Assembly (NCBI GenBank): GCA_025056255.1 | Contig: JANWVT010000004.1 | Coordinates: forward strand, 62,001 to 126,000 | From: Bernardetiaceae bacterium | GTDB taxonomy: Bacteria > Bacteroidota > Bacteroidia > Cytophagales > Thermoflexibacteraceae | Direction: 5' to 3' | Length of the DNA stretch: 64,000 bases | Shown: one piece after another, positions 44,259 through 48,616 of the stretch | Position numbering within the stretch: position 1 is the stretch's first letter | Layout: the number at the start of each line of letters is the position of its first letter | Notes under the pieces: model-generated | Told to the model about the DNA's origin: nothing | Databases searched by the model: none | The model's input: the letters and a program-made list of their open reading frames with translations, nothing else | Position numbers and translations under genes: made by a program

Positions 44259-44927
44259 TTAAAATTTGAACTTGATAGTATTTGCCGGAGAGGTTCTCCC
44301 CTCCATAATGTCTAATAGCGGTACACGGTAATAAAAAGTCTTATTGTTGTCTTGTAACTCCCCGTTGGGGTTGCTGAACGAGCGAATTTTGCCTGTTTGA
44401 GGACGTACCACACACACATATGCTGCTCCTTGCAAAAGGGTTTGCATTTGGGCAGCTCCTTCGGGCGTACTTCGCAGCACTGCTAAGTCGGCAAGGGCAC
44501 TGATGGGTGTGCGCTCTGTGCGGCTCAATTCTTTTTTCTTAAAAGTAAATATGTTGGTACCATTCAACTCGGCTTGTTCTTGCGACTGATTAAGTGCTGC
44601 ATTCAGAGCTTCTATGTGCTGAAAATCGAAACGCATGCCAAATACGTATTGCTCATGGTCATTAATTGCCTGTACGTTCTGGATGCCTTGGATTTGTGCG
44701 AGCCGTTCTGTGCCTTTGGCAAAGGCTGAGTCTATCTGAGCAAAAGAGGTGCGGTCTTTAGCCATTTGCATGCTCATAGCCATGTCTATCAGGCTTTTGC
44801 TACGGCTCATATCTAACAGAAAGACGTAGTTGCCGCTTCCTTGCTTGCTGATAGTAATTTCTTCCCGAATTTCAAAGCAAGACAGGCACATGCAAGCAAC
44901 TAATAAGAGCAGTAGGCTCCGAACCAT
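44259..44927 (-). CDS. Putative lipoprotein of unknown function
   Basis: This 222-residue protein has a lipoprotein-type signal ([17 protein letters not shown], Cys at residue 17), followed by [25 protein letters not shown] recall this opening from Bacteroidota exported proteins of unknown function, but I cannot give a family name. The remainder is mixed alpha/beta with no motif. I chose the ATG at 44927 to fit the signal; the frame extends to 44951. It lies 30 bases after ettA and 16 bases before metK, in the same operon. Confidence 0.72.
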
Positions 44928-44957
44928 GCAAAACTGAAGTGAGGCACACATAATCAG

Positions 44958-46622
44958 TTATTTGACCAATTTTTTGTAGCGAATGCGCTTAGGTTCTACG
45001 TAGCCTTCTTGTTTGCGACGAAACTCTTCATAGTCGGAGAAGTTGCCTTCGAAAAAGCGCACTTTGGAGTCGCCCTCAAATGCTAAGATATGTGTAGCTA
45101 CGCGGTCTAAAAACCACCGGTCGTGAGAGATGATAACTGCACAGCCGGCAAAGTTTTCTAACCCCTCTTCTAAGGCGCGGAGTGTGTTCACGTCCAAATC
45201 GTTAGTGGGTTCGTCGAGCAGCAAAAGGTTGGCATCTTGTTTTAGGGTCATGGCTAAATGTACGCGGTTGCGTTCGCCGCCGGAGAGTTGCCCTACTTTT
45301 TTCTGCTGGTCTGCACCGTTAAAATTAAAGCGGCTAACATAGGCGCGCGAGTTGATTTCTCTGCCGCCAACCAGCATAATTTCCTGCCCACCTGAAATGG
45401 TTTCCCACACGGTTTTGTTGGGGTCTAAGTTGTCATGGGTTTGGTCTACATAAGCCCAGCGCACAGTTTCGCCAATTTCAAATGTGCCGCTGTCGGGTTT
45501 TTCAATGCCTGTAATGAGTTTAAACAGGGTGGTCTTTCCTGCTCCGTTTGGACCTATCACCCCCACAATACCGCCTTGTGGCAGCGAAAAAGAGAGATTT
45601 TCGAATAAGAGTTTGTCGCCATAGGCTTTGGAAACGTTGTGTGCTTCAATCACTTTAGCCCCTAAGCGAGGACCGGGCGGAATGTATATTTCGAGTTTTT
45701 CTTCTTTCTGCTTGGTTTCTTCGCTCAGCATGCTTTCATAGGCATTCAAGCGCGCTTTTTGTTTTGCCTGACGGGCTTTGGGTGCCATGCGTACCCACTC
45801 TAACTCGCGTTGTAGGGTACGTTGGCGTTTGCTCTCCTGCTTTTCTTCTAATGCCAAGCGGTTTTGTTTTTGTTCTAACCACGAAGAGTAGTTGCCTTTC
45901 CAAGGGATGCCTTCGCCGCGGTCTAATTCCAGAATCCAACCCGCTACGTTGTCCAGAAAGTAGCGGTCGTGTGTAACGGCAATTACTGTTCCTTTATATT
46001 GCTTGAGGTGCTGCTCTAACCAATGTACCGATTCAGCATCTAAGTGGTTGGTAGGTTCGTCGAGTAGCAATACGTCTGGCTGTTGTAAAAGTAAGCGGCA
46101 CAGGGCTACGCGGCGTTTTTCCCCTCCCGAAAGGTGAGCAATGAGCGCATCTTCGGGCGGACAGCGGAGCGCATCCATAGCGCGCGCTAACTTATTGTCC
46201 AAGTTCCATGCATCGCAGGCTTCCAATTTTTCTTGGATAACCGCTTGACGCGCTAATAGCTTATCGAAATCTGCATCGGGTTCGGCAAACTTTTCGCCAA
46301 TAGCTTCGAATTCGCGCAGTAAATCTACAATTTCCTGTACTCCTTCTTCTACTACTTGACGTACTGTTTTGGTAGGGTCCAGTTGAGGTTCTTGCTCTAA
46401 CAGCCCCACTGTATAACCGGGAGAAAAGACTACCTCGCCCGAATAATTTTTATCTATACCGGCAATAATGCGCAACAAAGATGATTTGCCCGAACCGTTA
46501 AGCCCCAGCACACCAATTTTTGCGCCATAAAAAAACGAAAGATATATATTTTTGAGCACTTGCTTGGAAGGAGGGTAAACTTTACTCACCCCTGCCATAG
46601 AGAAAATAACGGTTTCGCTCAT
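44958..46622 (-). CDS. ettA: Energy-dependent translational throttle protein EttA (ABC-F)
   Basis: EttA is an ABC-F ATPase that binds the ribosomal E site. The 554-residue product has two ABC domains: the first with Walker A GLNGSGKSS and signature LSGGEKRR, the second with GPNGAGKTT and LSGGERNR, plus LLLDEPTNHLD and LLLDEPTNDLD. The linker between domains carries the MAPKARQAKQKARLNAYE arm of the EttA subfamily. The start at MSETVIFSMAG (46622) is the standard ABC-F opening; the frame open to 46751 is not used. It is the first gene of the operon with the lipoprotein and metK, and is divergent from the PAS protein. Confidence 0.93.
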   Translation of the reverse strand: MSETVIFSMAGVSKVYPPSKQVLKNIYLSFFYGAKIGVLGLNGSGKSSLLRIIAGIDKNYSGEVVFSPGYTVGLLEQEPQLDPTKTVRQVVEEGVQEIVDLLREFEAIGEKFAEPDADFDKLLARQAVIQEKLEACDAWNLDNKLARAMDALRCPPEDALIAHLSGGEKRRVALCRLLLQQPDVLLLDEPTNHLDAESVHWLEQHLKQYKGTVIAVTHDRYFLDNVAGWILELDRGEGIPWKGNYSSWLEQKQNRLALEEKQESKRQRTLQRELEWVRMAPKARQAKQKARLNAYESMLSEETKQKEEKLEIYIPPGPRLGAKVIEAHNVSKAYGDKLLFENLSFSLPQGGIVGVIGPNGAGKTTLFKLITGIEKPDSGTFEIGETVRWAYVDQTHDNLDPNKTVWETISGGQEIMLVGGREINSRAYVSRFNFNGADQQKKVGQLSGGERNRVHLAMTLKQDANLLLLDEPTNDLDVNTLRALEEGLENFAGCAVIISHDRWFLDRVATHILAFEGDSKVRFFEGNFSDYEEFRRKQEGYVEPKRIRYKKLVK

Positions 46623-46753: not shown

Positions 46754-48616
46754 ATGCTATTGGGCGACACTACTGCGCAAACAGTGTTTAATCATCCTTT
46801 TATTGGCAACATTCTACTCGACTGCCAAATGCGGGTGCTCTCGTACAATGAGTTAGCTGCAAAAACCATTCAGCATTTTTTTGGATTGTCTATTGCCGAA
46901 GGCTCTTCTTTTCTGCGCTATGCTTCCACAGAGGACCAACGCAAGCGCATGATACTCAACTTTCAACAGGCGCTACAAGGGGACCCCGTTCAGTTTGAAG
47001 TTGACCTTACCGATAGCAGTGGAAATTGTTACCGGTTTGCGAGCATGTATGTGCCCATTAAAAACCAAGCAGGAGAGGTGCATCAGGTGCTTTTTTCAGC
47101 GTACGATGTGAATGAGATGCGCCAACAATCACAACTTATTGAACAGCAAAGGCAAGAGCTGGTAAAACTGGAAAGTATTTTTAAGGCGCTGTTTGAACAT
47201 CACTCCCATGCCAATTTGTTGCTATCGCCCGAAGGGCAGCTATTGGCTATTAATGCCCGTTCAGCAGTGCTATTGAAAAAATTTAATCTTCCCCCTCTGC
47301 AGCCTAAAGACCATTTTTTTAATGCGATAAACCACTCGCCCTTAGAGTCGCTTAAACCACTCATTCAACAAGTCATTGCAGAAAAAGTTTTCATAGAGCA
47401 AGAAAAAGATCTGTTTGGCGACGACAAAAAAAATTACTGGATACACCTTTGTCTTGTGCCTATTTTGTACCCCGACGGCAGTTTGTTGGGGGTATTTGTG
47501 CAAATGAAAGACATTAATCATCAGAAAAAAGCCGAAGAGCTGATGCAAAGGCAACAAGAACGCCTTCGCCAATCGGAAGGTCAGCTAAGGGCTATGTTCG
47601 ACAACTCTTCGGACGTTAACATATTGGTAGGAGCCGACTATCGCATCATTTCCTTTAACAAGCGTGCGGTTGATATCATGCTGGAGCAACTGCAAAAGCG
47701 CTTGCTGCCGGGTTTAGACATCCGCACTTTTGTGCTAAGTGAACGGCAAACTGTTTTTGAACAACATTTCCAAGCTGCACTTCGCGGGCAATACATCAGT
47801 TTAGAGGTTGAAATACCTAACTACAAGGGCGAACGAAACTGGTACCGATTTACGTATACGCCTGTTATCGACCGCTTGGGTACTACTTCTGGCGTCATCA
47901 TTAATGCTATTAATATCAACGAGCGCAAGCGCAATGAAGAAAAAATACTGAGGCAAAACGAACAAATCAAAAAATTTGCTTTTCTCACTGCTCATAGGCT
48001 TCGCGCACCCGTAGCAAGTATCTTGGGCTTGCTCAACATTTATGATATGGATGGCGCCAACATGAGCCACCGAGAAGTATTAGAGCTTATGCATCGTATC
48101 CGAACAGCCACCGAAGAGCTCAACTATGCCATTAGTGAAATGAATCGTTCATTGGAACCGTTCCAAGCCGACAGTATTACAGCGCAGCAAGCCTCTGATG
48201 TTTCGGTGATTAATGATACCGCACATCCTTTGTCGGTAATGCTGATAGACGACGACCCTATTGTAAACATGGTCAGCAAAACGTTGTTGCAGCGCAACTA
48301 TCCGGGCATTGTAGTGCATGCTTTCCTAAAAGCCGAAGAAGCACTGCAATTTCTTAAAACGACCAAAGAACAGCCATCATTAATTCTGTTAGATATTATT
48401 ATGCCTCATATGAATGGCTGGCAGTTCCTACAAGCCTTTGAACAACTGCCTCATCGACCGCCCGTATTCATGCTTTCTTCTTCGCTGCGCCAGTCTGACC
48501 GCGAGGAAGCTCAAAAACATCCTACTGTTGTTGATTTTATTGCCAAGCCCATTGATTCAGAAAAAATAAAAGGCATACTAAAATTTTTAAAGGCTTCAAA
48601 ACAGCCTTTGCCGTAA
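46754..48616 (+). CDS. PAS-PAS-PAS-DHp-receiver protein without an ATPase domain
   Basis: This 620-residue cytosolic signalling protein has three PAS-like domains (about 1-135, 140-275, 276-397), each ending in a conserved PAC-like stretch. A two-helix segment at 398-473 (KFAFLTAHRLRAPVASILGLL) has the H-box pattern of a histidine kinase dimerisation domain (His414). No HATPase (CA) domain follows: after EMNRSLEPF the sequence reaches the receiver domain (LSVMLIDDDPIVN, phospho-acceptor Asp547 in LLDIIMPHMNGW, then FIAKPID). It is either a phosphorelay protein that receives phosphate from another kinase or a degenerate kinase. No GGDEF, HTH or other output domain is present. Its ATG lies 131 bases from the divergent ettA start, leaving a shared regulatory region. 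Confidence 0.85.
   Translation: MLLGDTTAQTVFNHPFIGNILLDCQMRVLSYNELAAKTIQHFFGLSIAEGSSFLRYASTEDQRKRMILNFQQALQGDPVQFEVDLTDSSGNCYRFASMYVPIKNQAGEVHQVLFSAYDVNEMRQQSQLIEQQRQELVKLESIFKALFEHHSHANLLLSPEGQLLAINARSAVLLKKFNLPPLQPKDHFFNAINHSPLESLKPLIQQVIAEKVFIEQEKDLFGDDKKNYWIHLCLVPILYPDGSLLGVFVQMKDINHQKKAEELMQRQQERLRQSEGQLRAMFDNSSDVNILVGADYRIISFNKRAVDIMLEQLQKRLLPGLDIRTFVLSERQTVFEQHFQAALRGQYISLEVEIPNYKGERNWYRFTYTPVIDRLGTTSGVIINAININERKRNEEKILRQNEQIKKFAFLTAHRLRAPVASILGLLNIYDMDGANMSHREVLELMHRIRTATEELNYAISEMNRSLEPFQADSITAQQASDVSVINDTAHPLSVMLIDDDPIVNMVSKTLLQRNYPGIVVHAFLKAEEALQFLKTTKEQPSLILLDIIMPHMNGWQFLQAFEQLPHRPPVFMLSSSLRQSDREEAQKHPTVVDFIAKPIDSEKIKGILKFLKASKQPLP

Follow-up and report, generated by a model that had tools for sequence, protein, structure and literature searches.

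A PAS-PAS-PAS-DHp-Receiver Protein without an ATPase Domain from a Bernardetiaceae Bacterium: a Possible Phosphotransfer Module of the Histidine Kinase Type

The Gene and Its Neighborhood

The window considered here, i.e., the whole stretch of 64,000 nucleotides that was analysed, encodes a 620-aa protein that combines three PAS domains, a histidine kinase-type DHp helical hairpin and a receiver domain, and lacks HATPase (Table 1). Genes in its neighborhood were identified by Pfam. As stated in a preliminary description of the locus, the gene is divergent from ettA, the likely ATG of which is at 46622, leaving 131 bp between the two coding regions. The same gene occurs in three other species of the genus (51–63% identity), in each case adjoining a divergent ettA; the dihydrolipoyl-dehydrogenase gene located 3' of the window gene is also found at this position in two of these congeners, the examined stretch of the third ending inside the receiver. 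The proximity of ettA probably means nothing, as it was seen only within the genus. Neither a kinase gene nor a second receiver gene adjoins the gene in the window. Between metK and ettA (44259–44951, reverse strand) lies a gene for a 230-aa protein with a lipoprotein-like start and no Pfam match.

Table 1. Features of the gene for the PAS-PAS-PAS-DHp-receiver protein (positions refer to the window).
Feature	Position	Strand	Remarks
Whole gene, PAS-PAS-PAS-DHp-REC without HATPase	46754..48616	+	620 aa, ATG start; three congeners with the same architecture
PAS 1 (residues ~11–120)	46784..47113	+	One of three PAS_4 stretches; PAS_3 at 53–112; borders approximate
PAS 2 (residues ~140–258)	47171..47527	+	PAS_4 and sensory_box, three stretches each; borders approximate
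PAS 3 (residues ~277–393)	47582..47932	+	PAS_4 282–393; sensory_box 272–397
DHp helical hairpin (residues 399–470), motif FLTAHRLRAPVASILGL	47948..48163	+	Sub-threshold HisKA; 15-domain alignment; two helices in AF2 model
His414, predicted phosphoacceptor	47993..47995	+	Invariant in both alignments examined
Linker (residues 471–493), HATPase position of a hybrid kinase	48164..48232	+	Low model confidence, no regular fold
Receiver domain (residues 494–613)	48233..48592	+	Response_reg, 69 bits
Asp547, predicted receiver phosphoacceptor	48392..48394	+	Invariant in the alignment covering the receiver

Domain Organization

The domain search that the preliminary description had proposed as a check bears out its account of three PAS domains and a DHp segment joined directly to a receiver. 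Pfam detects PAS_4 in three stretches of the protein (72 bits) and Response_reg at residues 495–608 (69 bits), and the HisKA profile matches residues 413–448 with 13.3 bits, under the cut-off of 26.9 bits; in two relatives (L052 and L035) HisKA is over the cut-off. No HATPase family was matched by the protein at E ≤ 1 in Pfam, in agreement with NCBIfam, and the gap of about 22 residues between hairpin and receiver leaves no room for such a domain. The possibility of a divergent HATPase fold in residues 474–495 can be discarded, the segment being too short and matching no profile. Lacking HATPase, the protein is predicted to be unable to act as an autokinase. An HPt identity of the hairpin was considered and rejected, since Hpt (PF01627) has no Pfam match in the protein; a search of the genome for Hpt was also blank at this gene.

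The residues expected of phosphotransfer are in place, including the two that the preliminary description had pointed out. His414 lies within FLTAHRLRAP, with Arg at H+1 and Ala at H+4, and the phosphorylation set of the receiver is complete (D499/D500, D547, S575, K598). Within the genus, the receiver is the most conserved part (78% mean identity; 63% invariant columns) and the linker the least conserved (14% invariant columns, vs. 51% in the DHp); among the PAS domains the second one varies most. A single-sequence AlphaFold2 model of residues 385–620, another of the proposed checks, shows a pair of long helices that is joined to an alpha/beta receiver by a linker of low confidence (mean pLDDT 59, mostly 62–83 in the hairpin block).

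A Class of DHp Proteins without HATPase

The protein belongs to a large class that is represented both in its order and in the phylum. Its own genome has 33 HisKA matches, 28 of which are accompanied by HATPase 136–166 bp downstream and five, the window gene included, are not. The other four HATPase-less proteins (L031:2421-4073, L033:1191-2966, L034:970-2532, and L035:2160-3893) have TPR-DHp, TPR-membrane-DHp, membrane-GAF-DHp and PASx4-DHp architectures, respectively, with membrane segments read from the sequence; in all of them the DHp is C-terminal, whereas in the window protein it is followed by a receiver. An alignment of 15 diverse HATPase-less DHp domains shows invariant H, R(+3), and P(+5), and the model built from it finds matches in 90 of the 118 genomes of the order, several per genome. 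PAS-DHp-REC genes without HATPase are present in two other genera of the family (L026, L028), and the class extends to other classes of the phylum. When genome contigs were scanned with the window protein as single query only two weak matches were obtained, both to the receiver part, and the viral contigs searched likewise gave receiver matches only.

The loci examined comprised 88 matching places from the order plus controls from the same genome, and DHp matches above 50 bits were counted. Eighty-five of these 98 matches are in ORFs without HATPase and 13 in ORFs with it, a ratio that is not a census, since the ranking behind the sample favored resemblance to HATPase-less DHp domains. All 98 have the His, though the search model itself favors this residue. 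The His is followed by 50–93 residues in the other HATPase-less ORFs, by 206 in the window protein (receiver included) and by 205–218 in those bearing HATPase. The phylogeny of HATPase-less relatives, also suggested as a check, was inferred for 133 DHp domains, with only 70 columns and many open forks: the HATPase label changes 3 times on this tree vs. about 27 times for shuffled labels, and on this basis loss of the ATPase domain looks old rather than repeated.

The residue that follows the His differs in composition between the two kinds of DHp. Of the domains with HATPase, 29 of 30 have N, D, or E at H+1, as compared with 32 of 103 of those without it (Fisher p ~3e-11, a merely indicative value as the sequences are related); the remaining HATPase-less domains have K, V, I, Q, L, R, and others at this position, and Glu occupies it in 26 of 94 HATPase-less members. 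In autokinases the residue after the His serves as the general base, so a relaxed H+1 next to a conserved His is the pattern that a phosphate carrier would show.

Receiver Partners and Operons

The DHp-receiver pair occurs in two forms. It is fused in the window genus and in L026, L028, L052 (PAS-PAS-DHp-REC), L053, and L232, and it is encoded by adjacent genes in L064, L133, L186, L234, L235, L238, and L246; in L064, L133, L234, L235, L238, and L246 a short receiver gene comes directly after the HATPase-less DHp gene. The fusion is the rarer variant, and it is one packaging of a pair that is also found as two adjacent genes. In the broad sample, only 2 of about 84 HATPase-less loci have an adjoining downstream receiver. 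One locus (L053:1111-2118) encodes a 336-aa REC-DHp-REC protein that has neither HATPase nor PAS and would be a minimal single-chain relay element.

A recurrent operon consists of an HATPase kinase, a receiver of ~145 aa, a receiver-PAS-DHp protein of ~340 aa without HATPase, and a receiver of ~134 aa. Among 20 loci, which were found with the receiver-PAS-DHp protein as query and without using the receiver of the window protein, the upstream kinase is present in all, the intervening receiver in 18 and the directly downstream receiver in 12. The DHp of the operon kinase is of a different type (SHDLxEPLR), and the kinase is separated from the DHp gene by its own receiver. This gene order is also found, in full or in large part, outside the order (L233, L236, L239, L248, L250). 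In these loci and in L212-L231 the operon has the appearance of a full phosphorelay that lacks an HPt domain.

When 81 receivers were placed on a tree, the nine fused ones and the 18 encoded downstream all fell into one group of 30 (support 99); some of these loci had been found with an alignment that included the window's receiver, which favors the grouping, and the 12 downstream receivers of the operons had not. Kinase-side receivers (support 98) and N-terminal receivers (support 99) form separate groups. Two orphan receivers of the same genome also fall within the group of 30 (C30:228891 and C14:79097, in L039:862-1293 and L044); judging from this placement, they are candidate partners of HATPase-less DHp proteins.

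Relation to Known Systems

HATPase-less HisKA proteins are already on record from archaea, and the bacterial fusion with a C-terminal receiver is a variant of this kind. A census of 2018 describes “HisKA, no HATPase” proteins, which are non-enzymatic and HK-like, as well as receiver-PAS-HisKA proteins; it suggests that they may serve as phosphoacceptors, in phosphotransfer or as phosphatases, and states that such proteins are mostly misannotated as histidine kinases and that no response regulator of the receiver-PAS-HisKA class had been studied (PMC5847659). The P2CS label for HisKA proteins without HATPase is “possible incomplete histidine kinase”. Archaeal and bacterial proteins share sensor domains (PAS/GAF in the former, three PAS in the window protein), a HisKA-like domain with a conserved His and the absence of HATPase. 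Besides the receiver-PAS-HisKA forms, the archaeal list includes a ribbon-helix-helix-HisKA-REC protein of Lokiarchaeum (PMC5847659). In contrast to the archaeal proteins, the HisKA-like domain of the window protein is not C-terminal, the receiver being placed C-terminal to PAS-DHp, and the bacterial class, unlike that of the archaeal report, has recurrent operons and adjacent receivers that suggest its wiring. Within the literature searched, which covered few subscription journals, neither the bacterial class nor its receivers nor the operon of four genes was found to have been described.

Among systems with known phosphate flow, Sphingomonas PhyT carries phosphate from SdrG to PhyR through a DHp with a degenerate ATPase domain (PMC5898713), and ChpT, which is incapable of autophosphorylation, and Spo0B likewise relay phosphate (PMC3433190). 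The DHp of PhyT/PhyP is kinase-derived, as is that of the window protein, and relays phosphate between receivers (PMC5898713); in PhyP, too, the phosphoacceptor His is directly followed by Arg (HRxxN). However, PhyT and PhyP keep their degenerate ATPase domain, while the window protein, like the rest of its class, has none and carries a fused receiver. Spo0B and ChpT are dimers of His-bearing helical hairpins that act between two receivers (PMC3433190), a state that the predicted hairpin of the window protein may also adopt. The HPt domain (PF01627), a His carrier between receivers, is a functional analogue only, the hairpin of the window protein being of the kinase type. The C-terminal atypical Bergerat fold of ChpT, which is also present in Spo0B, is absent from the window protein, and PAS sensors and a fused receiver are found only in the latter. 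Hybrid histidine kinases (HisKA-HATPase-REC) have the same PAS-DHp-...-REC order; unlike them, the window protein has no HATPase and hence no ATP-driven autophosphorylation, and its receiver is of a class that is otherwise frequently encoded by a gene of its own, following an HATPase-less DHp gene.

If members of the class are sensor-gated phosphotransferases, counts of kinases in these bacteria may be too high, and one branch of phosphorelay signaling would have been overlooked. The fusion and the conserved operon make the flow of phosphate in this class directly accessible to experiment.

Proposed Mechanism and Alternatives

We consider that the window protein is probably, with a likelihood of about 60%, a non-kinase phosphotransfer module in which a kinase-derived DHp without ATPase is fused to the receiver with which it exchanges phosphate. 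The DHp hairpin would dimerize into a four-helix bundle with two His414 residues, a separate kinase would make the phosphate, and this would enter at a receiver or at His414 and be passed between His414 and Asp547. The signal would then be carried on by the phosphorylated receiver or by another receiver of this class that is encoded in the genome as a single domain, and the three PAS domains may gate the exchange via a coiled coil into DHp helix 1. In a His-Asp-His-Asp relay, the fused protein would combine the two final steps in a single chain. The relay wiring assumed for it is taken from relatives whose N-terminus is unlike that of the window protein. By analogy, the best reading of this step is that of a PAS-gated equivalent of the Spo0B/ChpT/PhyT step of a phosphorelay. 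Of the three roles named in the preliminary description, acceptance of phosphate from another kinase and exchange within the protein fit best, given the invariant His, the complete receiver and the grouping of the fused receivers with those beside HATPase-less DHp genes, many of which are part of kinase-receiver-DHp-receiver operons; the third, a phosphate sink, has little support in view of the residues at H+4 (see below).

A broader proposal, somewhat short of even odds, is that the phylum uses a large separate class of phosphotransferases, derived from kinase DHp domains by complete loss of the ATPase, read by dedicated single-domain receivers and wired in the order kinase, receiver, sensor-DHp, receiver; in the window protein the two final steps would be fused into one sensor-gated relay element.

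The main rival is trans-phosphorylation by a partner kinase, in which the protein would dimerize with a complete histidine kinase, receive phosphate at His414 directly from the ATPase of this partner and pass it on to Asp547; it would then be an adaptor through which a particular signal reaches a kinase shared with others. The DHp type of greatest similarity (SHNLR/SHNIR) does occur in HATPase-bearing kinases of the same genome and of relatives, and the His and the receiver of the window protein are intact. However, ATP-driven phosphorylation requires the H+1 residue, and HATPase-less members are relaxed at this position, which is Arg in the window protein, and the kinase of the conserved operons has another DHp type and its own receiver in between. 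This alternative is regarded as unlikely, albeit the strongest of those considered.

Less probable still is that the DHp acts as a phosphatase or phosphate sink that strips its own or other receivers of phosphate under PAS control. HisKA-type domains can be phosphatases, a role suggested for the archaeal HATPase-less proteins (PMC5847659), and PhyP has been proposed to be a PhyR phosphatase (PMC5898713). The composition of H+4 argues mildly against this role in the present class: the position is R, A, G, K, or S in 82 of 85 HATPase-less members and Ala in the window protein, a weak test as HATPase-bearing relatives also lack Thr/Asn. These two residues are the ones found at H+4 in HisKA phosphatases, and a sink or phosphatase is poorly supported for this reason.

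A purely structural role, with the hairpin as dimerization element of a PAS-controlled dimeric receiver and no histidine chemistry, is similarly improbable. Dimerization and protein binding have been put forward as the function of HATPase-less receiver-PAS-HisKA proteins in archaea (PMC5847659) and one paralogue has His replaced by Leu (L169), but the His is otherwise kept across a large, old class whose other parts diverge.

Finally, the idea that an assembly error removed the ATPase part, or that an ordinary hybrid kinase was truncated recently, has nothing in its favor beyond the unusual domain order and is refuted, as three separately assembled congeners carry the same gene (four genomes of the genus in all, with the same neighbors), the architecture recurs in the two other genera of the family and the few label changes on the DHp tree argue against a recent loss.

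The locus of the paralogue mentioned above contains two HATPase-less DHp genes, one of which has the His-to-Leu replacement (SLEVRGP) and may be a natural control.
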